41,626 bases of DNA from a virus. The notes beneath the pieces are model-generated. The model searched no databases. It worked only from the letters and a program-made list of their open reading frames with translations, and was not told where the DNA came from. The stretch covers positions 1 to 41,626 of IMG/VR virus record IMGVR_UViG_3300032163_000037. One strand, given 5' to 3'. A program made the position numbers and the translations under genes. The first letter of the stretch is position 1. Every line of letters starts with the position of its first letter. This document shows positions 1 through 31,334 of the stretch, in pieces.

Positions 1-154
1 CAGCTGCACCTGCTACCTGTGTAACTGGTTCACCTGGTTGGATTCTTGTCTTAGCACCGTCAGCTCCTGTTGAGTTGGCCGCTACATAATATTTAAGGGA
101 ACCACCAAATTTTGAATTTGATGTCTCAAATGGGGTAATATTTCCTATTGCCAT
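1..154 (-). CDS. Decoration-like head protein, 5' part (second copy of 41052-41558)
   Basis: This is the first 51 codons of the head protein whose complete copy lies at 41052-41558. It starts with ATG at 154 and runs off the window at base 1 only because the circle was opened here. The N-terminus MAIGNITPFETSNSKFGGSL is identical in both copies. It is not a separate gene. Confidence 0.9.
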   Translation of the reverse strand, partial: MAIGNITPFETSNSKFGGSLKYYVAANSTGADGAKTRIQPGEPVTQVAGAA

Positions 155-222
155 ATTTTTATTAAAATTAAACTATTAAATGTGGGATAGATTATTTCTT
201 TAATAGAAGATTTTGTCTTGCT
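1..222. repeat. Terminal redundancy, copy 1 (circle closure)
   Basis: These 222 bases are the same as the last 222 of the window (41405-41626) except for one base: A at 95 against G at 41499. The repeat cuts through a head gene and carries no packaging-site feature, so it is best read as assembly overlap of a circular or circularly permuted genome of about 41,404 bp. The mismatch is synonymous (Leu CTT or CTC on the minus strand), which suggests two co-existing variants rather than random error. Confidence 0.93.
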
Positions 223-716
223 TTCTCTATAAACTTTTCTGGGTCTGCATGAAGACGAGTTGCCTTCGCTTTTAGAGCCATAATCTGTTCAGGAGAGAAA
301 ACATTATCTTTCACTTCTACACTAGAACCACCTTCACCACCTATTGAACCTCCAGGGCGATTTTTGAGAGCTAACCTCAGTTCAGAGATAGTCTTTTGGG
401 CTTTTCGGAATTCATCCTCCTTGGCCTTTGTCTCAAGAGTAATTTCTCTTTCAATTAAAGCTGTCTTGACTTTATCCTCGATGAGAGCCTGAATGTCCCC
501 ACCGTTTTCCCCTAAGAATTCACTGTCTGCTGGTAACTTGCCTAATCTCTTGAGGGCGACATTTTTATAGTTGTCTCTCTCCTCTTCCAATTTAGCAATT
601 CTCGCATCTCGTTCTGCGATTATGTCAGTTTCGATAACTGGCTCAATCACAACCTTGGCTGCTTCGATTGCTGCTTTCGCTGCAACCTCTGCTGCAATCT
701 TTTCTGCTTCGTTCAT
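192..716 (-). CDS. Scaffold-like capsid assembly protein
   Basis: This 174-residue protein is mostly charged helix. An Ala/Glu/Lys-rich N-terminus (1-50) leads into long coiled-coil stretches (about 35-115), then a Gly-rich hinge (about 119-130) and a basic C-terminal helix ending in LLLKK. Helical body, flexible linker and basic tail is the usual plan of phage scaffolding proteins, whose tail binds the coat protein during procapsid assembly. The position fits too: on the circle it is transcribed just before the decoration-like protein (41558) and the major capsid protein (40959), the order usual in tailed phages. It is the first gene after a strong minus-strand promoter with a structured leader. 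No protease domain is visible. The role is inferred from composition and position, as scaffolds share little sequence. Confidence 0.6.
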   Translation of the reverse strand: MNEAEKIAAEVAAKAAIEAAKVVIEPVIETDIIAERDARIAKLEEERDNYKNVALKRLGKLPADSEFLGENGGDIQALIEDKVKTALIEREITLETKAKEDEFRKAQKTISELRLALKNRPGGSIGGEGGSSVEVKDNVFSPEQIMALKAKATRLHADPEKFIEKARQNLLLKK

Positions 717-896
717 GTTTTAATTCGCTTTGTTACTTAAAAAAGTTACAGGTTGCGAACCCCTTATTATTTTTAATTCCTTTCAGCTTTCGGCTGTGGT
801 TGGAACACCAATCCTTATTGGGGACTTGGTGTAGCCACCCTATCACTGGTCTCTGGGGGAAACAATTAACAGAGTAACTACACTAAATCACTAATC
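717..896 (-). promoter_or_regulatory. Structured 5' leader of the capsid operon
   Basis: About 180 nt separate the expected transcription start (near 896) from the scaffold ATG at 716, an exception in a phage where many leaders are almost absent. On the minus strand the leader can fold, for example ACCAA with TTGGT enclosing TCC with GGA around 805-835. It contains no convincing ORF. A translational control or mRNA-stabilising element for the most abundant virion proteins is the likely role; no known riboswitch class is recognised. Confidence 0.45.
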
Positions 897-902
897 TTTT
901 AG

Positions 903-931
903 ATTATAACACAAATTGTAATATTTGTCAA
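903..931 (-). promoter_or_regulatory. Sigma-70 promoter for the scaffold-capsid genes
   Basis: Read on the minus strand it is TTGACA (926-931), a 17-bp spacer, then TATAAT (903-908) preceded by TGT, an extended -10. Both hexamers match consensus. It starts transcription near 896 toward scaffold, decoration and capsid. Confidence 0.85.
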
Positions 932-935
932 ATGT

Positions 936-1229
936 CTACTTAGATAACTTGACTAGGAGATTGTCTAAAACAAACTGCCAGTGATAAAGCATTTTTGCTG
1001 ATAATACATGCTCATCAAGGGTTGACTGTTTTAGGGCCATATTAGCTGATTCATTTATTATCGTAGAACGAAGAATCTCATATAATTGAGATGTAGCAAA
1101 ATATTTAGCTTGCTCTTTAAGAAGAGCCTTCATTTCAGGAGAAACCTTTTCACCACCAATATAAAAATCTCCCTTGTATTCTAAGAAGACCTTCTTTTCA
1201 AGGCTATTGAAGTTCACCCGTTCTGCCAT
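936..1229 (-). CDS. Small helical protein of the head gene cluster
   Basis: This 97-residue protein has no family I recognise. It is helical with alternating charged and hydrophobic runs and no cysteines, signal peptide or membrane segment. Its ATG lies 26 bases inside the 3' end of the preceding gene (1204-1434), so it is probably translated by coupling. It is the last gene of the run 2411-936 between portal and scaffold, where phages often keep head-assembly or connector-associated genes. It ends a few bases before the scaffold-operon promoter, so it closes that transcription unit. A structural or assembly role is inferred from position only. Confidence 0.7.
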   Translation of the reverse strand: MAERVNFNSLEKKVFLEYKGDFYIGGEKVSPEMKALLKEQAKYFATSQLYEILRSTIINESANMALKQSTLDEHVLSAKMLYHWQFVLDNLLVKLSK

Positions 1230-1434
1230 TGTTGTATTTATTTAAAAATTCATCTTCAGGTTTGACTTCATCTGTTCGGGCGAGAGTATAGAGCGGTTCA
1301 GCTGTCATTATTGAGGCTTTAACTTGCCCACCACTCATTTCAATAAGAGTTTCTAACATTCCTTTCAAATAGGAAATATTTGGTGTTGGCGTATTTAATT
1401 CATCTAAACACTTTGTAAGAATTTTAATATTCAT
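1204..1434 (-). CDS. Small protein of the head gene cluster
   Basis: This 76-residue protein has no recognised family. The first half is a Leu/Lys-rich helix and the second half is polar and ends in NNGRTGELQ. The start ATG (1432-1434) shares a base with the stop of the upstream gene, and its own end overlaps the next gene by 26 bases, so the four small genes 2283-936 are translationally linked. Nothing indicates an enzyme. A small virion or assembly factor is plausible. Confidence 0.65.
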   Translation of the reverse strand: MNIKILTKCLDELNTPTPNISYLKGMLETLIEMSGGQVKASIMTAEPLYTLARTDEVKPEDEFLNKYNNGRTGELQ

Positions 1435-1859
1435 TAGTCAGTTACAAGTTCTGTTACTTTTAAATCAGACATAGGTCCCTTGAGGAATTTATGCATTCCA
1501 AATTGTCCAAATACTTGAGCAAGCCTATCGAGAGTTTCAGAAGCTTCTTCTGCTGATTCATCTTTAAGTAAACCAATAAGTTCATTCATTGCATCTGTAA
1601 TCTTTCCCTGTTCTTGACCTGATAAGTCAATAACAATATCAGCCATCTTAATTTGTTTAAGTTTCTTTTCAATTTCCAAATCAATAAATCCAGCCAAAGC
1701 ATTAATGGCTGTCTGGGCATCATAGATAGTATCAACTTTCTCTAGGGTTGGATAAATCATTCTTACAACTTCTTTAAGGTGAACAACCTTTTGTTTTTGT
1801 TCCATCTCTTTAACAATATCTTCTTTACTTAAATTTTTTCTTTGAGGTTTTTTATTCAT
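1434..1859 (-). CDS. Coiled-coil protein of the head gene cluster
   Basis: This 141-residue protein is strongly helical. A Lys/Glu-rich N-terminus (1-30) precedes long amphipathic helices, including a segment rich in Asp and Glu near residues 100-115. There is no known motif. It overlaps the neighbouring genes at both ends (start 1859 lies inside the gene ending at 1852). The layout between portal and scaffold suggests a virion-assembly protein such as a chaperone or connector component, but nothing in the sequence proves this. Confidence 0.68.
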   Translation of the reverse strand: MNKKPQRKNLSKEDIVKEMEQKQKVVHLKEVVRMIYPTLEKVDTIYDAQTAINALAGFIDLEIEKKLKQIKMADIVIDLSGQEQGKITDAMNELIGLLKDESAEEASETLDRLAQVFGQFGMHKFLKGPMSDLKVTELVTD

Positions 1860-2283
1860 TGATTATATTTTGATTAGATATTAATGTTGGACAAATCTTT
1901 TTATGTTTTACTCCCTTGCTATCACATTGACTACAAAATGGTTTTATTGCATTTGGGGAATCAATTATTCTTTCTGGAATTTGAATTGGAACTTCTGCTA
2001 TTGATACATTAGATTTAATTTCAAACAATGGAGGGTGAAGTTCAAACTTAGCTTTTGATATTGATACTTTCCATAGATGGTTAAAGTCTCCATCTGAACC
2101 AACATAATCAATCATCTTCTGTTGTGTGATTCCGCGAAGGTCATCATTTGTATATCCATCAGATACAACAGTGTTATCTCTGATTTCTGATATTCCCGTT
2201 CTCTGCAAATTAAAAACTTTTGCTAAATGCTCACGAATGTCTTTAGGATATTCAATCCAATGTTGCTGAAATATGCGTTCCAT
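1852..2283 (-). CDS. Protein with C-terminal cysteine cluster downstream of portal
   Basis: This 143-residue protein begins MERIFQQHWIEYPKDIREHL. Its C-terminal third contains CSQC followed about 10 residues later by HKKIC, a likely metal-binding knuckle. The middle is beta-rich and contains SKAKFELHPPLFEIKS, which resembles short phage structural proteins rather than an enzyme. It starts two bases after the stop of the small basic gene 2286-2411 and overlaps the next gene by eight bases. The function is unknown; a minor head or connector protein is inferred from its position after the portal. Confidence 0.65.
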   Translation of the reverse strand: MERIFQQHWIEYPKDIREHLAKVFNLQRTGISEIRDNTVVSDGYTNDDLRGITQQKMIDYVGSDGDFNHLWKVSISKAKFELHPPLFEIKSNVSIAEVPIQIPERIIDSPNAIKPFCSQCDSKGVKHKKICPTLISNQNIINE

Positions 2284-2285
2284 AA

Positions 2286-2411
2286 TTATTTTGCCTTCTT
2301 AACTTTGGCTGGCAACTTCTTAAAGTTCTTTGTATGCGAAGCAAACTCCTTAGCGAGTTTGGGCATCTTTGCGAACATGTAATGTTGTTGAGCCTTTGAT
2401 TTGAAGGGCAT
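2286..2411 (-). CDS. Small basic protein MPFKSKAQQ-type (41 aa)
   Basis: The 41 residues begin MPFKSKAQQHYMFAKMPKLA and end in a Lys-rich tail. Short basic proteins with the MPFKS-AQ-x-YMFAK start are common beside packaging and head genes of tailed phages and have no assigned function. It follows a clear promoter (2459-2487) whose leader is about 40 nt, and the portal gene lies just beyond that. The gene is below the usual length cut-off, but codon pattern, the recurring N-terminus and tight fit with the gene at 2283 support it. A nucleic-acid or head-interior protein is possible given its charge. Confidence 0.72.
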   Translation of the reverse strand: MPFKSKAQQHYMFAKMPKLAKEFASHTKNFKKLPAKVKKAK

Positions 2412-2458
2412 GTTATTTATAGGAGGTAATCCCCCAGATGATTATTATTAATACTTGT

Positions 2459-2487
2459 ATTGTAACACAGATTTTAATTAAAGTCAA
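2459..2487 (-). promoter_or_regulatory. Promoter for the small head-cluster genes
   Basis: On the minus strand it is TTGACT (2482-2487), a 17-bp spacer, then TACAAT (2459-2464) preceded by TGT. It overlaps the extreme 3' end of the portal gene and gives the genes at 2411-936 their own start. Confidence 0.75.
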
Positions 2488-2488
2488 G

Positions 2489-4528
2489 CTATTGAGGAAG
2501 CTTAGATGCTCTTCCAGCAGAAGGAGAAGAAGGTTTAGCAGCAGAAGGAGTTCCAGGTTGTCCATTGGCTGCTGTTTGTCCAGTGGCTTCGGGGCCAGCA
2601 CCACCAGCAGGAGCTGGGGCTTGTTTCTTTATGTAGTCTCCAGCATTTCTTTCTGTCTTTGGATTAGATGCCATGAGAAGGTCTTTAAAGATTTTCTCCT
2701 GGTCCGCAACAGGTGAGGCAACAGCACGGTCGTAGGTTTCCAAATCAAATGCTCTTGTCAATTCAGCTGAACGTGGATTCAACACATCTGCATCAACTGC
2801 GAACTTAAACTTGTGTTCTCTAAATAGTGTAGGATTAACTTTCCAAAGTGTTGTGTTAGATTTCAAACCTCCCTGAGCTTTCAATAACATCCAACTCATT
2901 TCCAATTTCTCATCATCTGTCATTGTATCTGGCATATTGGCATCAAATGAAATCTTATTCTGTTTTCCAGTCTTACCTGGTTCTTTTGCGTAAAATGTTT
3001 TATAGAGTAATCCTCCATCACCTGTAACCTTCTCAGCATCTGGCATGGTCATGTATTGGAGAATATCTGAAAGAAGGAGTTTACCATAGGGGATAACATG
3101 GGCATAGGTAAAAAATTTAATTGAGAGACCAAGAACAGTTGTAGCGTTTTGTTCGATTCTTGAAATCTCATAAGCTGTAGAAGCTGGACCAGCACCTGCT
3201 TGTCCTTGCTGTATAGCATCTTGGGAACTTTCATGGAGAGATTGTTCAATCTTCTCAAGAGTATTCATGGCTGTATTCAATGAGGCGGCATCAGCTGTTC
3301 TCAAAGCATTGATTTGAACATCTTTATCTGAGAAAGCTAAGTTCAAACCTGGAACAATAACATCTGTTCCCATTTTATCTGAACCAGTAGTAATTGTAGG
3401 TGGGAAAAGATTAAGCTTAGTACCATCGGCAATCATTTGATAGAATTCATTTGCTAGACGGGCATCAGACTGTAGAGAGAACACAAGAGATTTACCTGCA
3501 ATAGTTCTTTCATTGATTGGTAAGTAGTAGAAACAATCCCATGGGTATTGGTGGTCAGCTCTTGGATTCTGGGCATAAGGTTTAGAAATCATAATTCCAT
3601 TAACCATAACCTCTTTAGAATCTGTAGACTTTCTCCATCGGATGACCTCCTCAACTTCCTCACCCCTCATGTGTGGGTCATAGACTTGATAGAAACCTCT
3701 ATTGGCATCATCCATAGTAACAACAATTCCTGGCTTAACAAATTTCATGTTAGGGTATTCTGATTCTGGATATTTAGCTTTAGCTCTGTCGTGAGAGATT
3801 ATTCTGCGGAGAATTATAAAATCTTGTTTCTGACAATCTCTTTCGTAGAAGTTCGCAAAGTAAACTTGGTCGCAAGAAATAGGAGTATGTTTGAAGCCAC
3901 TTTCTTCTTCATCTAAAATTTTCTTATATTTAGGAGTACCCTCTGAATCTTCACCATCTCTAACATTTCTATAAGTTTCAACATATTCTGTTAAGCCCCA
4001 TGAGATTGGAGAATAGAGGGCTGATATATTTCTGAATAAAGCAACGTAGGGATAGTTAGCTTGTTCTCTGGCCCAGTCAACAAGATAGGACATAATCTTA
4101 GCTGAATCTTCTTGCTCATCATCTGATTGATTGTAAGCAAATATTTTAGGAACAAGTTGTCTTGCTGTTTGATGGGCTGCAATTGAGACAGCAGAATTTC
4201 TAATGATAGGTCTCATGGCTTGAGATTGCCATCCACCTAATCTATCTTCCATCATTGGATTACCATCATTCTCTTGATAGGTATTAAAAGCTAACATGTC
4301 AACAATAAATCTCTGATAAAGAGACATATCATTAAATTCAGGTCTTGGGAGATGCATAGTCTGCCAACCAAGCCTATAGTCTTTTAGAAATTCAGTTAAA
4401 CATTCACGTTCTAAATCAGATGGTACATAGGCAGATAAAGAATCCTTTTTTGGATTAGGTTTTCGGACAGCAGCACTGTCTGCGATATAGCGACCATTCT
4501 TATCTAATTTATCCTGAATTATTGACAT
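2489..4528 (-). CDS. Portal protein
   Basis: At 679 residues it is in the size range of the large portal proteins of podoviruses. It lies directly after the large terminase, with seven bases between. The N-terminal part contains a helical clip/wing region with long acidic and aromatic stretches, and mid-protein segments such as GQAGAGPASTAYEISRIEQN match the usual portal stem region. The C-terminus is a low-complexity Ala/Pro/Gly/Ser tail of about 50 residues (AGGAGPEATGQTAANGQ and following), probably disordered. The portal forms the dodecameric vertex for DNA entry and the adaptor docking site. The gene lacks a Shine-Dalgarno sequence; the ATG follows an AATAAATAAATC run. Confidence 0.85.
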   Translation of the reverse strand: MSIIQDKLDKNGRYIADSAAVRKPNPKKDSLSAYVPSDLERECLTEFLKDYRLGWQTMHLPRPEFNDMSLYQRFIVDMLAFNTYQENDGNPMMEDRLGGWQSQAMRPIIRNSAVSIAAHQTARQLVPKIFAYNQSDDEQEDSAKIMSYLVDWAREQANYPYVALFRNISALYSPISWGLTEYVETYRNVRDGEDSEGTPKYKKILDEEESGFKHTPISCDQVYFANFYERDCQKQDFIILRRIISHDRAKAKYPESEYPNMKFVKPGIVVTMDDANRGFYQVYDPHMRGEEVEEVIRWRKSTDSKEVMVNGIMISKPYAQNPRADHQYPWDCFYYLPINERTIAGKSLVFSLQSDARLANEFYQMIADGTKLNLFPPTITTGSDKMGTDVIVPGLNLAFSDKDVQINALRTADAASLNTAMNTLEKIEQSLHESSQDAIQQGQAGAGPASTAYEISRIEQNATTVLGLSIKFFTYAHVIPYGKLLLSDILQYMTMPDAEKVTGDGGLLYKTFYAKEPGKTGKQNKISFDANMPDTMTDDEKLEMSWMLLKAQGGLKSNTTLWKVNPTLFREHKFKFAVDADVLNPRSAELTRAFDLETYDRAVASPVADQEKIFKDLLMASNPKTERNAGDYIKKQAPAPAGGAGPEATGQTAANGQPGTPSAAKPSSPSAGRASKLPQ

Positions 4529-4535
4529 GATTTAT

Positions 4536-5816
4536 TTATTGAAACTTAGTATTAATTTTTGGTTTAAATCCCAGTTGTGAAGAGTAATGTATTTTGGGTT
4601 TATCAGATTCTTGATTATCCATATCGGTCATGATTACATAACGGATTGCATCCATTGCATCATCGTTTTCCTTTAGTGGATTTTCATCAGCAATCTTTCC
4701 CTTATCGTCAGGATAAGAATATGTTTCAAATTCCTGAATAACATTTATGCAATGACTTAAAACTTTCAATCTTCCTTGCTTTAACATTTCCTGAACTTTA
4801 GAAATTCCAGAAATGACGGAGCCTCTACCCTTATTAACTTCTCTGATATTGACACCTGCCTTACGCAAGCTTGCAATACCAGATGCATTTTCTGGGTCTG
4901 GATAAACCTTATTATAACACAGAGAGACTACTTTGTCAACTATCTCAGATTCTGTCTTTCCAGTCTGAAAGAACTCATCTGTAATCCAATAATTACCATC
5001 GTAATCCTTTTTGATTGTTATAACAGCACAGGGGTGAGTATGGCCCCAGTCCACACCTCCAAGTTTGTATAGGGTTTCGAAATCTGCTGGAAGCTCATCA
5101 ATGACATGTATGTCTCTGCTGAAATCCTTATAGACTAATCCTTCTCTCTTCTTAAACTCTCCCAATATTTCCTGAGCATACCTATCATCAGTCATTTCCT
5201 CCTTCATCTTTACAATTTCTTCGGGTGGAAGGTGGGGATTGTCATGAGATGTAAAATGGAAATATTTGTAGTCTGGGTCTGTTCCATCTTTTAATGTTAA
5301 ATCATAGAAATGATTAAAACCATTGGGAGTAGAGATAAATGTTGCCCCTCCCTTCAAGTCAATGAGGGTTGGTCGGAGAATTTCTTCCCATCCGAACATG
5401 AAATTCTTATACTTAGAGACCTCATCAAGAAAGATATGATTATTCTTAACACCGACCCCCTTTCCTCTTTCCTGCACAGCTTCCCAGCCATATAGAACAA
5501 TCAGAGATGTTCCGCCAAATCTATTACGGATATTTAATTCAAGGCGAGATTCATTTGGCTCACCTATAATTAAAGGCCCACAAATATCCTTCAATGCTTT
5601 CCACATAATGTCTCTGGCATCATCTCTTGTTGGAGCATAGTAAGGAACTCTAGCATTCTCATTTGATACCGCTATGGCAAACATTTCCCAAGCAACTAAT
5701 GTAGACTTCCCCCACCTACGGCCAGCGTTGATGACTCTAAACCTGTGTGTGTCTTTTGCCACGACCCTTTGGGTATCGTGTAGATTAAATGGTTTTTTTT
5801 CTTGTATAGTATCCAC
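4536..5816 (-). CDS. terL: Terminase large subunit
   Basis: This 426-residue protein is the packaging motor ATPase and headful or cos nuclease. Walker A is AGRRWGKST (31-39) and Walker B is HIFLDE (D131, E132). The RNase H-like nuclease domain starts at GGVDWGHTHP (D256) and ends with the acidic motif DDAMDAIRY (386-394). All key motifs are intact. The longest frame starts with GTG at 5816, six bases after the stop of the 28-residue gene upstream; no ATG lies at a better position, so GTG is accepted. It acts with TerS (6034-6525) and docks on the portal (2489-4528), the canonical order. Confidence 0.96.
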   Translation of the reverse strand: MDTIQEKKPFNLHDTQRVVAKDTHRFRVINAGRRWGKSTLVAWEMFAIAVSNENARVPYYAPTRDDARDIMWKALKDICGPLIIGEPNESRLELNIRNRFGGTSLIVLYGWEAVQERGKGVGVKNNHIFLDEVSKYKNFMFGWEEILRPTLIDLKGGATFISTPNGFNHFYDLTLKDGTDPDYKYFHFTSHDNPHLPPEEIVKMKEEMTDDRYAQEILGEFKKREGLVYKDFSRDIHVIDELPADFETLYKLGGVDWGHTHPCAVITIKKDYDGNYWITDEFFQTGKTESEIVDKVVSLCYNKVYPDPENASGIASLRKAGVNIREVNKGRGSVISGISKVQEMLKQGRLKVLSHCINVIQEFETYSYPDDKGKIADENPLKENDDAMDAIRYVIMTDMDNQESDKPKIHYSSQLGFKPKINTKFQ

Positions 5817-5821
5817 CCAGA

Positions 5822-5908
5822 TTATCTCTTACCGTATTTTTTAAGGTTTGAGTTAGTTACTTGTTTCTTACCTTTCTTTTTGGCCTTGACTAAAGTCTTG
5901 ACAGCCAT
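5822..5908 (-). CDS. Tiny Lys-rich protein between terminase genes (28 aa)
   Basis: The 28 codons read MAVKTLVKAKKKGKKQVTNS and a short basic end, with ten or more lysines. The ATG follows AAAATAAT, the start context used throughout this genome, and it fits between its neighbours without gaps. No homologue is recognised. A DNA-binding role would fit the charge, but at this length the call rests mainly on spacing and context. Confidence 0.5.
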   Translation of the reverse strand: MAVKTLVKAKKKGKKQVTNSNLKKYGKR

Positions 5909-5909
5909 A

Positions 5910-6032
5910 TTATTTTTCTGAAACTTCCTCAACAGATGATTGAGATTCTGTTCCTTCTTCACGCAACATTTCGTTAGTGATAGGTACGATTCCGTCTGTA
6001 TCTGCTTGAACTAAATTTTTTACTCCTGACAT
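5910..6032 (-). CDS. Small acidic protein between terminase genes (40 aa)
   Basis: The 40 residues begin MSGVKNLVQADTDGIVPITN and end in an acidic Ser/Glu-rich tail. The start (6032) is one base after the TerS stop and the stop is one base before the next ATG, so coupled translation is likely. No motif or membrane segment is seen and the function is unknown. Confidence 0.55.
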   Translation of the reverse strand: MSGVKNLVQADTDGIVPITNEMLREEGTESQSSVEEVSEK

Positions 6033-6033
6033 T

Positions 6034-6525
6034 TTATTTATCTTCTTCGTTAGTTTCTAATGGTTCGACTTTCTCTTCTTTGTTTAGATTGTATTTCTCC
6101 AATAACTCTGCTGGCATAAATACAATTGGTGCCCCATCCTTTCCAGTAACTTCGCTCCTCTCTGAATATCCTTCATCCTTACCCTGTGTCTTAGCAATAA
6201 ACTTAGCTGTATCATTCTGGACACGGACTAAGTCAGCCTTTGGCTTTCCAGCCTCATCAGTAACATCCATTTCTAATGTTTTCTTTAAAACCTTCTCAGC
6301 CTTATTCAACATCTGGATTCTCCTTACCTTAGCTTTCCACCATCCAACATTAGTAATAATATCTGATGTCTGGTCTGTATACCCAGCGGCCATAGCTGAC
6401 CTCTTGGCATTGTTCCATGTTGGAGACTTTGGGTCTACATAATTCTTCCAAGCTTTAGCTTGTCTTAAATCAAATTTGTGTTCCTCATCTGAGGGATTAA
6501 ATTCTTCAATAGTTTCTTCATTCAT
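6034..6525 (-). CDS. terS: Terminase small subunit
   Basis: This 163-residue protein recognises phage DNA for packaging. Residues about 20-75 contain the helix-turn-helix-like pattern of terminase small subunits: a KAWKNYVDPKSPTWNNAKRS stretch, then SAMAAGYTDQTSD and a VGWWK helix. A coiled-coil oligomerisation helix follows, then a C-terminal segment with APIVFMPAELLEKYNL. A tail of this kind commonly contacts TerL. It is the first gene after a consensus promoter whose -10 ends only seven bases before the ATG, so the mRNA is nearly leaderless. It leads the operon TerS-TerL-portal. Confidence 0.88.
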   Translation of the reverse strand: MNEETIEEFNPSDEEHKFDLRQAKAWKNYVDPKSPTWNNAKRSAMAAGYTDQTSDIITNVGWWKAKVRRIQMLNKAEKVLKKTLEMDVTDEAGKPKADLVRVQNDTAKFIAKTQGKDEGYSERSEVTGKDGAPIVFMPAELLEKYNLNKEEKVEPLETNEEDK

Positions 6526-6532
6526 ACAAAGG

Positions 6533-6561
6533 ATTATAGCATAGATTTAATATATTGTCAA
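6533..6561 (-). promoter_or_regulatory. Consensus promoter for the terminase operon
   Basis: Minus-strand TTGACA (6556-6561), a 17-bp spacer, then TATAAT (6533-6538) preceded by TGC. The -10 is seven bases from the terS ATG, implying a leader of about one or two nucleotides. It is divergent from the plus-strand promoter at 6608-6636. Confidence 0.85.
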
Positions 6562-6607
6562 CTACGTTGTGCTGATTCTGATTACAGAATAACAGTCAAC
6601 TAATTAC

Positions 6608-6636
6608 TTGACTTCCAACTACATGTGTGCTATAAT
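6608..6636 (+). promoter_or_regulatory. Plus-strand promoter of an intergenic transcript
   Basis: TTGACT (6608-6613), a 17-bp spacer, and TATAAT (6631-6636) preceded by TGC. No ordinary gene follows; transcription would run about 210 nt to the terminator at 6827-6854. Confidence 0.78.
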
Positions 6637-6642
6637 AGTTCT

Positions 6643-6854
6643 AATTGAATGGCTGGAATCCCAGTACCATTTTGAATATTCTTTTCTCTAGGGGACTTTT
6701 CTTTTATTCTTTACTTAACCGTTCTTCGCCGCTTGGTTAGTTTTCGGTTCTTCTTTTCTTTAAGGTATTTAAATAACAACATAATCAAGGAGAAGACGCC
6801 ATGCTCAAAATAACATATCAGATATTAAAAAACCCCTATTTCTAGGGGCCTTTT
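6643..6854 (+). ncRNA. Candidate small RNA between a promoter and a terminator
   Basis: A promoter and an intrinsic terminator bracket this roughly 210-nt stretch, which has no normal gene. Hairpins are visible: CTGG-aatc-CCAG near 6653 and AACC with GGTT around 6719-6740. A CTAGGGG copy at 6688-6694 could compete with the terminator's 3' arm for the CCCCTA at 6833-6838, an attenuator-like choice. Near the end, AAGGAGA stands before a 14-codon ORF (ATG 6801, MLKITYQILKNPYF) whose stop is inside the terminator. That is one of the few strong Shine-Dalgarno sites in the window. It may be a regulatory RNA, a leader peptide or both. Confidence 0.55.
6827..6854. terminator. Bidirectional intrinsic terminator
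   Basis: The stem is CCCCTA (6833-6838) with TAGGGG (6843-6848) and a 4-base loop. On the minus strand it is followed by six T (A-run 6827-6832), and on the plus strand by CCTTTT. It ends the minus-strand gene 6869-7015 and the plus-strand transcript from 6643. Confidence 0.85.
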
Positions 6855-21991: not shown

Positions 21992-22018
21992 AGCCCTCAC
22001 TTATTGTGGGGGCTTTTA
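21992..22018 (+). terminator. Intrinsic terminator at a strand switch
   Basis: AGCCCTCAC (21992-22000) pairs with GTGGGGGCT (22006-22014), with one mismatch/G-T, followed by TTTAT. It ends the 21763 transcript and overlaps the end of the opposite-strand RusA gene. Confidence 0.8.
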
Positions 22019-22366
22019 TATTTCGTAGGAGATTTCTGCTCTTGGATTTTCTCTATCAACACCCCCAAATATCATGTGAATATCTGGTAAGAAGAACCAG
22101 TTATCATCTTCAATTATTCCACAATCAGTAAAAGTATCTTCTATGGATTGCCATTTATTTGACAAATCTCCAGACCGAAGACTATCAGAGTAATATGTAA
22201 ATTTTAAAGGAGTTCCTTTTGGAATAGATTTAACACCAACTAATTGTTGGACAGCATCTTTGTGCCAAGCAGTATATTTGGCACTTGGAAAAGACCTACC
22301 TGAACGGGTATTGATACGAGAATTTTTTTTACTTGGGACAAGGCCAAGTAAAACTATTACTGACAT
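22016..22366 (-). CDS. rusA: RusA-like Holliday junction resolvase
   Basis: This 116-residue protein has the RusA pattern: a beta-strand start with SKKNSRI (about 12-18), then SPWHKDAV-like AKYTAWHKDAVQQLV. The signature region follows, with paired acidic residues in SIEDTFTDCGIIEDDNWFFL (about 74-93), where Asp residues bind metal. Such enzymes resolve four-way junctions in phage recombination. It is encoded on the minus strand in an otherwise plus-strand region, as second gene of a short operon with the RHH regulator, which overlaps its start by 10 bases. Confidence 0.85.
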   Translation of the reverse strand: MSVIVLLGLVPSKKNSRINTRSGRSFPSAKYTAWHKDAVQQLVGVKSIPKGTPLKFTYYSDSLRSGDLSNKWQSIEDTFTDCGIIEDDNWFFLPDIHMIFGGVDRENPRAEISYEI

Positions 22367-22485: not shown

Positions 22486-22514
22486 ATTATAGCATAAAGT
22501 ATGACATTTGTCAA
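22486..22514 (-). promoter_or_regulatory. Consensus promoter of the RHH-RusA operon
   Basis: Minus-strand TTGACA (22509-22514), 17 bp, TATAAT (22486-22491) preceded by TGC. Divergent from the plus-strand promoter 32 bases away. Confidence 0.85.
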
Positions 22515-22545
22515 TTGATTATTCCCAGTTATTATGGTAAACTTC

Positions 22546-22574
22546 TTGACTTTTGTGCTACTTTTTGCTATAAT
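22546..22574 (+). promoter_or_regulatory. Consensus promoter of the last early operon
   Basis: TTGACT (22546-22551), 17 bp, TATAAT (22569-22574) preceded by TGC. The ATG at 22583 is only eight bases on. The 31 bases between the two divergent -35 elements are the likely site for a regulator. Confidence 0.85.
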
Positions 22575-22582
22575 GGGTGCAT

Positions 22583-22939
22583 ATGATTACATTAAAGTTA
22601 GGACAAATAGTCCAAAGTACCAATGCACTGAAAGAATTAATAGCTACTAAGTTGCCTATCAAGATTTCATATCAATTAAATAGGCTAAGTCGAGAGATAG
22701 ATGCAGAGTTAAAGATTTTTGAGGAAAAGAGAATTGAACTTATTAAAGAGTTCGGGGTGAAGGATGAAGAATCTGGAGAAACAAAAGTCTCTCCTGAGAA
22801 TATTGCTGAGTTTATGAAGAAGTTTGATGAATTAAGTGCAATAGAAGTTAATTTGAATTATGCAGATAAGATTAAGGTTGAAGATTTAGGAGACATTAAA
22901 ATGGAAGCCTCAAACATCATTGACTGGCTCTTTGAATAA
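22583..22939 (+). CDS. DUF1617-like protein (118 aa)
   Basis: From ATG 22583 the product begins MITLKLGQIVQSTNALKELI and matches the pattern of short phage proteins of DUF1617 type: a start on -LG-I--STNALK-LI, then LPIKISYQLNRLSREIDAEL, and a coiled coil with EEKRIELIKEFG. A GTG two codons upstream is open in frame but lies right at the expected transcription start. Function is unknown. It is followed after one base by a second small helical gene. Confidence 0.66.
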   Translation: MITLKLGQIVQSTNALKELIATKLPIKISYQLNRLSREIDAELKIFEEKRIELIKEFGVKDEESGETKVSPENIAEFMKKFDELSAIEVNLNYADKIKVEDLGDIKMEASNIIDWLFE

Positions 22940-22940
22940 T

Positions 22941-23159
22941 ATGGAAAAAACCTTCAAACAGTTCTTTGCAGAAAGTAAAGCTAAGCAACCTGAATGGGGA
23001 ACTTACATTCATCTTTGTCGAGTATTGCAGGAATCTGGGGCCGATAGAGAGGAAATTACTAAACTGTTTGAGGAATACATGAAGCCCGAAGAATACGCTA
23101 GAAGTGAGAAAACAGAACTCATAAACTACCTTGAAGAGATAGCAAACGAAATCAACTAA
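22941..23159 (+). CDS. Hypothetical helical protein (72 aa)
   Basis: The product begins MEKTFKQFFAESKAKQPEWG and has three predicted helices with acidic and aromatic residues (LCRVLQESGADREEITKLFE). It starts one base after the previous stop and ends 12 bases before a strong two-way terminator, so it closes the early half. No function is recognised. Confidence 0.65.
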   Translation: MEKTFKQFFAESKAKQPEWGTYIHLCRVLQESGADREEITKLFEEYMKPEEYARSEKTELINYLEEIANEIN

Positions 23160-23170
23160 AAAAGACACTT

Positions 23171-23250: not shown

Positions 23251-24096
23251 CTAATTCTTACTAGAGAACCATTTGAATATCATATCAACGATATTCTGTA
23301 TGAATGTCGGGGTTGAGGTTGGAGGGAGTTGTTTTTTTATAACCGAATAACTTAAAATTATCCATGCTTCGGTAGGCTTATATGTAGTCCAGTTTACATC
23401 AGCACAACCATTATTTGCCCAAGAAGGGGACCAAGTATTTGCTAAAGTTTGCATGAAAGAATTAGTGTAATCATATTTACACATGATAATTGCATGACCA
23501 GAAACAATAGTCTGGGGTGGCCTCAATGGATTGATTGGCACCGTCCACCATTCCTTGCCTAAGTCATATCGGCATAAGATACCTGCATCTGATTGGTCTA
23601 TTGCATGGGCAATCTTTTGCGGGTCAGAAACATCCACTTGAGAATATCCTGCAATTTTATCTATACATAAAGTTAGAAGTCTATTTATCTCATCATCAGG
23701 GATTGCTTGGAGTTTAGCGACATAATTTGCATAACCTAAGTTCCTATCAACTTCTGTTGTATATTTCCATTGTTCTAATGGAAGAAAACCAAACTTATTT
23801 CCTACTTTCAATGAAGATAAAATTGATGAACCCTCAATCCAATTTTTATCAATGAATTTCTTTTGGAGAAGGTAGTGAAAGTCAGCAGAATATTTCTTCC
23901 CATTAGCTTTTCTTCTTTGTTGTTCTTCAGATATACCCGTACAAATTCCAGCAGAATATTGCATCTCAATATCAGAAGGAAGATAATCATATCCACCCTT
24001 AACTAGCGGAGCCCCAGCTTGTGTTAAATCACTGTGCTGAACAGTTCTTGGGTCTTGTATTGATTCATGGCAGCCTGTTCCAAATGGTGTTTCCAT
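23251..24096 (-). CDS. Papain-like cysteine peptidase in the lysis cassette
   Basis: From ATG 24096 (METPFGTGCH) the product is 281 residues. The papain-like (C1) triad is visible: Cys in QYSAGICTGIS (C52), His in VSGHAIIMCKYDY (H201) and Asn in LANTWSPSWANNG (N220), in the order and spacing of C1 peptidases. A C-terminal Pro/Thr linker and an amphipathic end (FIQNIVDMIFKWFSSKN) follow. No signal peptide is seen. The start at 24096 is one base after the stop of the coiled-coil membrane gene. The frame opens at 24111, but that overlaps it. Phage C1-type peptidases are unusual in this position, where an endolysin is expected; it may cleave wall peptides or a surface protein. Confidence 0.8.
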   Translation of the reverse strand: METPFGTGCHESIQDPRTVQHSDLTQAGAPLVKGGYDYLPSDIEMQYSAGICTGISEEQQRRKANGKKYSADFHYLLQKKFIDKNWIEGSSILSSLKVGNKFGFLPLEQWKYTTEVDRNLGYANYVAKLQAIPDDEINRLLTLCIDKIAGYSQVDVSDPQKIAHAIDQSDAGILCRYDLGKEWWTVPINPLRPPQTIVSGHAIIMCKYDYTNSFMQTLANTWSPSWANNGCADVNWTTYKPTEAWIILSYSVIKKQLPPTSTPTFIQNIVDMIFKWFSSKN

Positions 24097-24097
24097 A

Positions 24098-24334
24098 TTA
24101 TTTATGAGCATATGTTAATATTAATGGGATTAAAAACCCAATGAATGCAATTACCGCCACAATTCCACTTCTCCAATTTTCTAACTTATTTACCCTACCA
24201 TTAGTTTTCGTGGTTTGAGCTTCAATCTTTACAAGTCTATCTATAGTTTCAATATGATAAGAATCAAATTTATCTGTTAAGCTGTTTATCAGTATTGCTA
24301 ATTCGCGATTTGTAAATTCTTGAGGGGATTCCAT
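24098..24334 (-). CDS. Holin-like coiled-coil membrane protein (78 aa)
   Basis: Residues 5-50 are a coiled coil (LAILINSLTDKFDSYHIETI, then DRLVKIEAQTTKTNGRVNKL), followed by one C-terminal membrane helix (about 56-74, GIVAVIAFIGFLIPLILTY). Helix then anchor is the plan of XhlA/haemolysin-type phage proteins, often partners of a holin. Immediately downstream is the cysteine peptidase, so the two form a lysis-type cassette with their own promoter. Confidence 0.7.
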   Translation of the reverse strand: MESPQEFTNRELAILINSLTDKFDSYHIETIDRLVKIEAQTTKTNGRVNKLENWRSGIVAVIAFIGFLIPLILTYAHK

Positions 24335-29084: not shown

Positions 29085-31334
29085 TTACTTAGTAGAAGCC
29101 TTCATTAATCCATAAGCTCCTGCCCCTATAACACCTGTAATTCCTGCTATCTCTAATACTTTAAATATTGCATTTCTTATTCTCTCTTTCTTTAAGGCTT
29201 GGGATTCTGCATCAAACTTTTTCAAACTAATCGTTTTAAGAGCTTCAACTTTATCTTGTTTCAATTGTTTCTGTATTTGAGTACCAAGTTCTTCAATGCT
29301 TATTTTTTGCTGAACAGCAGCCTCCCTACCTTTTATAAGTTTAGTAACTTCCGCACCAATAGTCCCTGGTTCTACCTTCATAGCTTTTTCAATTTCAGTT
29401 AGAGTAGCTTGTGCTTTTATTTTAGCTTCAAATTGGGCAGGTGTCTTAGCTTCTGTACCAGCAACACGCAATGTTTTAGCAAATGGTGTCTGGATAGCCA
29501 TCTCATCAAATGGTTTAATTTGTTGTGTTATAACTTTTCGAACTGGAGCCCATGATTTCCAGAAAGCATTAGCTTCCTTTAAATCCATTCCATTCTTTCC
29601 CAACACATCCATAATAAAAGAATAGTGTTTCATGGCTTCATATTCTCTAGCATTGTATGATGCATTACCAGACCTAGCAGCTGGACTTATTGTTTGCATT
29701 TCAGCCTTAGCTTTATTCCATAAATCATTTAAGGAAACCTCTGGTTGCTTAACAGTTTCTCCTGGGGTAGCACTTGTTGTTGGTTCTTTAAAGCCAAGCC
29801 AATCTTTTAATTTCTGTGCATCTTCAGGGGAATTAACACTTTCATGTGAGGATGCCTCATTTAATACTTCACTAACTGGAATCTTCGTTTCAAGTGATTT
29901 TCCACTCTCAGCTAGACTTGCTTCAACTAAATCCCTATATTGATTAGATGCTTCTGTATATAATTTAGCAGCTGGTTCTTTTTGAGCCACAGCAACATCC
30001 TTGCTGGTGGATGCTATCTTTTGACTAAAATCTTGTATATCATTTTGTACTGTTTGTAGATGTTGTTCCGTGGCAACTTTTGCTTTATCAGCAAGTGCAG
30101 TTGATTGCTCTTTAGCTAAATCAGATTGTGCTTTATACCACACCTTTTGGTCTCTAGCTGGAAGTTTCTGTACTTCTGCTTCAGACATACTAAGAATCTT
30201 AGATGCTTCTGTTGTGCCAAAGTGTGAAACCAATCCTTGATATGCTCTACTTGCGCCCTCAAGTAATCCACCAGTGGCGAGACCTAAAGTGGCTCCAATA
30301 GCACCTTGTGTACCTATTTTACCTAAATCAGTTTCTCCCCCCTGAACAGCACCCAAAGCACCCATACCACCTCCAAGAACTGCACCACCAACAACCCTTT
30401 CCATAGCTGTGCCACCTGGAATAACTGCACCACCAGCAATACCTAAACCAGATTGTCCTATGTCAGCTAATATTTGAGCAGTAGTTTTATTCTGTACGCC
30501 TGATAAGAAATCATCTTTCTTCGGGGCATCAGTTTGTATTTCTCCTAATACTTTTTCTAATCTTGATGTATCTTTTCCAGATTGTTTCTGTGTTGCTATG
30601 GTAGCCTGTAATTTCTGAACCATAGTATTGTGTTGAGCAAGAGCTTCTTTATATTGTTTATTACTTGTTACATCTGAAATAGCTCCACCAATATCTTCAC
30701 CCAATCCTGTTTGACCCGTAATGTCTCCAGCGAATTTCAAAGCCTTACCACCAAATGTTGTGGGTTTATAAACGCTTGTATCTGCCCTAGAAGAATCACC
30801 TTCAAATGTTTTATGAATACCTGCGATTAATGAATTCCCTACAGGAGCTGGGGGGACTGGAGGAGTTGGGGAAGAGACACTAGATGGGTTCGTTGGGTCA
30901 ATGCCAACCTGTCCACCACCTTTTATTGTGTGATAAGCTGTGGCAACACTTTTAGCATAACTAGGAACGTCAAATTGAACCCCAAACTTATTCTTCCCAA
31001 TTGAAGCCTGGCCATTCGAGAATTTGCCTGTATAAGCACCTGATTCATCTTCTCCTGCATTCCACATAGAAGCTATCTGACCAACGTTCTTACCCGAATC
31101 TTTCCATTCTTTTATTCTACTATAAGCAACTTTATTCTGTTGCTCTTTCGTTGCTTGTTCCAAGGGAACATTCACTCCGTATTTAGAAGCTGTGGCATTC
31201 CATGTATCAGGGGTAAATTGATATGCTCCATATTCATTAGATTTCCCTCTTACACTAAAATTGCCCCCACTCTCCGATTGACGAATGGCTTTAGTTAGGG
31301 CTACTACGTCTTGGTCTAAAGGTTGATTATCCAT
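29085..31334 (-). CDS. Ejection/internal virion protein with lytic transglycosylase
   Basis: Residues 1-145 of 749 form a lytic transglycosylase domain: catalytic Glu in RQSESGGNFSVRG (E21), then NEYGAYQFTPDTW (Gly-x-x-Q), and SMWNAGEDESGAYTG. A Pro-rich linker (SSVSSPTPPVPPAP) and a long region with Gly-rich hydrophobic stretches (GLGIAGGAVIPGGT, GAVLGGGMGALGAV) and coiled coils follow. A C-terminal hydrophobic helix (about 727-745) may enter the membrane. This is the plan of podovirus internal core or ejection proteins (like T7 gp16) that open the wall during DNA entry. Confidence 0.85.
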   Translation of the reverse strand: MDNQPLDQDVVALTKAIRQSESGGNFSVRGKSNEYGAYQFTPDTWNATASKYGVNVPLEQATKEQQNKVAYSRIKEWKDSGKNVGQIASMWNAGEDESGAYTGKFSNGQASIGKNKFGVQFDVPSYAKSVATAYHTIKGGGQVGIDPTNPSSVSSPTPPVPPAPVGNSLIAGIHKTFEGDSSRADTSVYKPTTFGGKALKFAGDITGQTGLGEDIGGAISDVTSNKQYKEALAQHNTMVQKLQATIATQKQSGKDTSRLEKVLGEIQTDAPKKDDFLSGVQNKTTAQILADIGQSGLGIAGGAVIPGGTAMERVVGGAVLGGGMGALGAVQGGETDLGKIGTQGAIGATLGLATGGLLEGASRAYQGLVSHFGTTEASKILSMSEAEVQKLPARDQKVWYKAQSDLAKEQSTALADKAKVATEQHLQTVQNDIQDFSQKIASTSKDVAVAQKEPAAKLYTEASNQYRDLVEASLAESGKSLETKIPVSEVLNEASSHESVNSPEDAQKLKDWLGFKEPTTSATPGETVKQPEVSLNDLWNKAKAEMQTISPAARSGNASYNAREYEAMKHYSFIMDVLGKNGMDLKEANAFWKSWAPVRKVITQQIKPFDEMAIQTPFAKTLRVAGTEAKTPAQFEAKIKAQATLTEIEKAMKVEPGTIGAEVTKLIKGREAAVQQKISIEELGTQIQKQLKQDKVEALKTISLKKFDAESQALKKERIRNAIFKVLEIAGITGVIGAGAYGLMKASTK

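Follow-up and report, generated by a model that had tools for sequence, protein, structure and literature searches.

Phage lysis enzymes belong to a short list of catalytic families. Should papain-type peptidases be included among them? The question is raised by one gene in a virus record of 41,626 bases, which was analyzed as a whole and will be called the window. The first-pass annotation of this sequence placed a C1-type peptidase in the position where an endolysin is expected, and suggested a new lysin class. We have studied the gene, its relatives and its neighbours, in order to see how much of this description can be maintained.

The Peptidase Gene in the Window

The features discussed in this work are shown in Table 1. 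The longest form of the peptidase reading frame (23251-24111, minus strand) has 286 aa, counted from the first ATG at 24111. Since Met6 (24096) corresponds to the start of the genes of the relatives, the shorter gene in the Table, as first annotated, is the likelier one; its start lies directly past the stop of the preceding gene. Residues are numbered here in the 286 aa form, an offset of +5 from the original numbering: Cys52, His201 and Asn220 of the 281 aa protein become Cys57, His206 and Asn225.

The peptidase is the final gene of the late block on the minus strand, which is closed by a terminator. It has no signal peptide. Other genes in the window code for a terminase, a primase-helicase, an MT-A70 methylase and exonucleases. 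Two divergent, near-perfect sigma-70 promoters (12/12 on the minus strand, 11/12 on the plus strand, both with TG before the -10) are found between a RusA-like reading frame and the plus-strand genes, which start at 22577.

Table 1. Position of the features found in the window and in related contigs.
Sequence	Feature	Position	Strand	Remarks
Window	SLT lysozyme-like protein, 129 aa	18964..19353	+	N-terminal signal/TM segment 10-28; Pfam SLT E 8.1e-5, above its cut-off
Window	RusA-like ORF	22016-22366	-	
Window	Divergent sigma-70 promoter pair	22486-22574		
Window	GTG ORF	22917-23168	-	Rejected as a downstream membrane protein
Window	Terminator-like palindromic stem-loop	23171..23197	none	Right after the peptidase gene, between convergent transcription units
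Window	Papain-family (C1A, xylellain-like) cysteine peptidase	23251..24096	-	281 aa from Met6
Window	Coiled-coil-like protein, 78 aa	24098..24334	-	Single TM helix at the C-terminus; precedes the peptidase gene directly
Window	Collagen-like/tail-fibre-like protein, 1405 aa	24377..28594	-	Sequence features only, no Pfam match; upstream of both lysis-region genes
Window	Protein with N-terminal transglycosylase (SLT) domain, 749 aa	29085-31334		Pfam E 3e-8
L047	Protein with similar N-terminus	1147-3987		Compare window 29085-31334
L052	Region outside a lysis setting	2640-6658		
L015	Region outside a lysis setting	3250-4463		
L013	Glycosyltransferase/methyltransferase-like	3-2408		Directly upstream of the peptidase
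L017	Glycosyltransferase/methyltransferase-like	2216-3379		Directly upstream of the peptidase
L024	Glycosyltransferase/methyltransferase-like	1-207		Directly upstream of the peptidase

Relatives of the Peptidase

A stepwise search of IMG/VR found 15 relatives, each on a contig of its own (L001, L008, L009, L011-L017, L024, L027, L046, L047 and L052) and an outgroup, L018. Searches of cultured phages gave no match to the family, nor did a pattern scan of a collection of 84,980 prokaryote genomes. Matches of L001 in cultured Agrobacterium, Rhizobium and Geobacillus phages were discarded: They are due to the PG_binding domain, which L001 shares with muramidase or M15 lysins of these phages. A host guess based on Patescibacteria-like repeats and an SLT motif was not supported by a pattern scan, whose one match is in a Saprospiraceae MAG. 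A tree built on the papain domain unites the 13 members known at that stage in a single clade (100/100) with a long branch, and places L018 next to it (95/93).

A Papain-Type Active Site and Fold

When the window protein is searched on its own, there are no significant matches in Pfam, PHROG or PDB sequences. Nothing in it exceeds the Pfam or PHROG cut-offs, in agreement with the earlier statement that it has no glycosidase, amidase or muramidase domain. The Pfam Peptidase_C1 family does not match it; L001 reaches a sub-threshold 16.7 of 20.7 bits and the outgroup passes with 25 bits. The profile of the whole family finds xylellain (3ois) in the PDB with E 8e-17, followed by cathepsins F, K and B and papain.

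The active site is formed by Gln51, Cys57, His206 and Asn225. The oxyanion-hole glutamine of papain is thus present six residues before the cysteine, and the asparagine is found within an NTW/NSW motif. The equivalents of these four residues are invariant in an alignment of 12 sequences and again in one of 15; the same residues were read by eye in L046, L047 and L052. The C1-type triad of the first-pass annotation is therefore correct, and does not vary among the relatives aligned.

The annotation also proposed a structure prediction, to be compared with C1A, CHAP and C39 peptidases. The AlphaFold2 model obtained with the 15-sequence alignment (pLDDT 87, pTM 0.84) has a C1A fold: Foldseek places xylellain first among PDB structures (E 2.6e-12, TM about 0.65), and the best 50 matches are all papain-type, with no CHAP, NlpC or C39 structures among them. 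As judged from the model, this match is far beyond chance. Among predicted viral structures the best matches are phage Peptidase_C1 proteins, one of them named "Peptidoglycan binding-like" and another "N acetylmuramidase". No member of the 12-sequence set matches CHAP, NLPC_P60 or C39. Neither of the outcomes named in the annotation as speaking against it, a CHAP/NlpC-like fold or a triad that varies among relatives, was thus observed.

By fold and active site, the window gene encodes a true papain-family (MEROPS C1A) protein, a predicted peptidase. A Cys-His-Asn thiol peptidase chemistry is well supported, as predicted from the fold and the residues. It is extremely improbable that a CHAP, NlpC/P60 or C39 domain, that is, an ordinary phage cysteine endolysin, has been misread as papain-type: These families share a papain-like superfold and C39_2 Pfam matches appear in two related phage C1 proteins, but profile and fold searches lead to C1A, and both the glutamine at Cys-6 and the NTW/NSW asparagine argue for a papain-type enzyme.

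Wall-Binding Domain and C-Terminal Helix

Phage endolysins often, though not always, have a domain that binds the cell wall. A PG_binding_1 domain is present in five of the 12 proteins scanned (L001, with E 8e-9, L008, L009, L011 and the outgroup L018), where it forms the C-terminal domain. The Pfam scan does not find it in the window peptidase, and the sequence between the peptidase stop and the terminator has no room for a lost copy. Where its nearest relatives have the domain, the window protein has an amphipathic helix (residues 270-285, approximately). Such a helix ends all tested members which lack PG_binding_1. Since the tree groups the window with four members containing the domain (100/100), the simple reading is that the window copy would have lost it. 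Alternatively, the domain may have been gained by the others after the split, as the branching order inside this group is settled in part only.

Neighbouring Membrane Proteins

The gene directly upstream of the window peptidase does code for a coiled-coil-like membrane protein, as first described. In size, build and topology it resembles XhlA-type membrane proteins of lysis cassettes. It does not match any lysis family; its PHROG matches only reach E about 0.1, one of them being "hemolysin". It is the only membrane protein adjoining the window peptidase, beside which we have found neither a downstream holin nor a recognised one. The GTG reading frame in Table 1 was rejected as a downstream membrane protein, because it is located past the terminator, and a credible reading frame of the plus strand runs antisense to it.

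Membrane proteins are found beside the peptidase in most of the family. Counting by hand, an upstream coiled-coil/TM protein adjoins it in 10 of the 16 members (window, L001, L008, L009, L011, L012, L014, L016, L027 and L046, the last one with a borderline TM score). A short downstream TM protein appears in 13/16, the exceptions being the window, L015 and L052, and a short membrane protein is adjacent on one or both sides in 14/16. A scripted count found an upstream short TM protein in nine of the 13 members then known, versus 3 of 109 other genes; these comparison genes have 150 aa or more and belong to the same loci, and the gene picker lost some small genes to antisense reading frames. In L009, the downstream gene (4955-5191) matches PHROG holins (E 8.5e-8) and the PF16079 holin family (E 5e-5, below its cut-off). 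The outgroup L018, which has PG_binding_1, presents no adjacent membrane gene.

The surroundings are different in a few contigs. In two of them, L052 and L015, the peptidase has no lysis setting: One is flanked by terminase and portal-like genes, and one is beside a nuclease-like gene. In three related contigs, L013, L017 and L024, the genes directly upstream of the peptidase resemble glycosyltransferases or methyltransferases, and are possibly involved in surface modification.

The original placement of a papain-type peptidase in the lysis region can be maintained. The lysis reading comes mainly from the PG-binding domains and adjacent holin-like genes of the relatives. For the window copy, which lacks both the PG-binding domain and a holin after it, the reading is one of homology and position.

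Companion Wall Enzymes

Separate wall enzymes of canonical type are found in nine of the 16 phages, most of them with an N-terminal signal or TM segment. They are of the SLT type and near the peptidase in L008, L011, L027, L046 and L047; in the window, the SLT enzyme is encoded elsewhere. CHAP-like enzymes are near the peptidase in L012 and L014, and a 3D-like enzyme, recognised by eye with no Pfam match, in L016. The Pfam matches of L008, L011, L012, L014 and L027 are below the curated cut-offs, and the L046 and L047 enzymes were read by eye. The 129 aa SLT protein of the window, whose gene runs opposite to the late genes about 4 kb from the peptidase, is a candidate companion wall enzyme. 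The presence of these enzymes in nine phages suggests that the papain-type peptidase is probably a second lysin, not the sole wall enzyme. The 749 aa protein with an N-terminal SLT domain probably serves at entry as a virion-associated wall enzyme.

Proposed Role and Alternatives

We consider it likely that the window gene is a papain-family (C1A, xylellain-like) peptidase working as a holin-dependent lysis enzyme. The proposal starts from the papain fold of the model, the active site and its conservation, the PG-binding fusions, the holin-type neighbours of the relatives and the companion enzymes. The peptidase would be made late, with no signal peptide, and would cross the membrane once this is opened by the membrane lysis proteins of the phage. 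It would then use the Cys-His-Asn thiol mechanism common to such enzymes to cut peptide bonds of the cell envelope, which may be those of a stem peptide or cross-bridge, or of a wall, S-layer or tether protein. In the relatives, PG_binding_1 would keep it at the wall; the window copy would have lost this domain, and its amphipathic helix may bind the membrane instead. A separately exported enzyme would cleave the glycan, the peptidase probably being the second lysin. We infer the export route, the order of events and the lytic activity; holin-dependent export is suggested by the missing signal peptide together with the holin-like neighbours.

C1A enzymes classically cut L-L bonds, and many peptidoglycans do not contain such bonds. 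This specificity and the second wall enzyme speak for a target in protein or in a cross-bridge, and the PG-binding fusions favour proximity to murein. Within a lysis role, the substrate may be protein and not murein: A peptidase at the wall would digest an S-layer or the proteins that tether the outer layer to the wall, spanin-like in effect, and an SLT or CHAP-type partner would open the murein. Cutting of L-L protein bonds is what C1A peptidases normally do, and murein cutting is already covered in the nine phages with a separate wall enzyme. Nevertheless, PG_binding fusions would fit murein substrates equally well, and we regard a protein substrate as possible, though rather unlikely. Somewhat more tentatively, the whole clade of uncultivated phages might devote a wall-docked papain-type peptidase to a lysis step of its own, in which it would remove a protein surface layer or a tether of the outer layer and not cut murein. 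The protease would replace spanins, and would be paired with an exported glycan-cutting enzyme.

The enzyme could also be part of the virion, on the tail or a fibre, digesting a surface layer during infection. In several relatives, as in the window, its gene directly follows one for a tail-fibre-like protein, and a block of structural-type genes adjoins it in L009, L013, L017 and L024. On the other hand, it is not fused to any structural protein, a holin-like gene follows directly in most relatives, and a large virion-type protein of the window already contains an SLT domain, so we find such a role improbable. A general intracellular protease, involved in host takeover or protein processing and close to lysis genes by accident, seems improbable as well, by a slightly wider measure. 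Several cases count against a lysis role and agree with this reading: L015 and L052 have no lysis genes around the peptidase, and in phages such as FLC9 and Shaeky the C1A genes are at a distance from those for lysis. Against it, five proteins have PG_binding_1 fusions, and flanking membrane genes recur across a diverse clade. Canonical xylellain-like C1A genes are also found in six viral contigs (L030-L035) and in the jumbo Burkholderia phage FLC9 (L040), with no recognised lysis genes beside them in the loci read.

Comparison with Known Systems

To call the holin-dependent lysis enzyme proposed here a new lysin class is too strong. The acquisition of xylellain-type C1A genes by Myoviridae and Siphoviridae was already reported in a 2023 study (PMC10380794), and phages GMA2, MMB025 and THSA-485A have C1 peptidases annotated among their lysis genes or next to them. 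The window peptidase is a real, distinct variant of this annotated kind, and a putative lysin. Our literature search, of partial coverage, found no experimental study of these C1-type phage proteins as lysins.

The closest structure, xylellain from Xylella fastidiosa, has the same Gln-Cys-His-Asn order, and its catalytic domain is also preceded by an N-terminal D-x-R stretch. Identity is only about 20%, and xylellain is a cellular enzyme, with neither a peptidoglycan-binding partner domain nor lysis genes. For Orf38 of Gordonia phage GMA2, the name of putative lysin was given in 2015, on the grounds of a cd02619 peptidase motif (PMC4524720). We find a Peptidase_C1 match in it; it belongs to a lysis cluster, immediately before a putative holin, and is accompanied by other lysins (C39, Amidase_2). 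Unlike the window protein, it is outside the clade; it has 222 aa and no PG-binding domain, and its lysin role comes from annotation. The "endolysin" of Alicyclobacillus phage MMB025 (XXN61434.1) combines Peptidase_C1 and PG_binding_1 in one protein, but it has 753 aa, with an extra glycoside-hydrolase-like domain, and is also outside the clade. In Thermoanaerobacterium phage THSA-485A, the C1A peptidase Tsac_2838 comes directly after a lysozyme with GH25 and PG_binding domains; its sequence is distant and does not include a PG-binding domain.

Other systems are similar in some respects. Mycobacteriophage LysA N5 (C39-like) and the CHAP endolysins LysK and PlyC are lysis cysteine peptidases with a papain-like superfold (PMC3314691, PMC10318531), but they belong to the C39 and CHAP families, absent among the profile and fold matches listed for the window family. 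Cwp84 of Clostridioides difficile is a C1A enzyme at a bacterial surface, acting on S-layer protein; it differs in being a host-encoded cell-surface protein with a propeptide, and is not a lysis enzyme.

If the proposal is true, a papain-type member would add a catalytic class to phage lysis enzymes, so far found as annotations. It would also raise the question of whether a C1A enzyme is able to cut peptidoglycan, or whether a protein envelope obliges some phages to use a protease. As inhibitors and assays of C1A enzymes are well known, a test would be simple.
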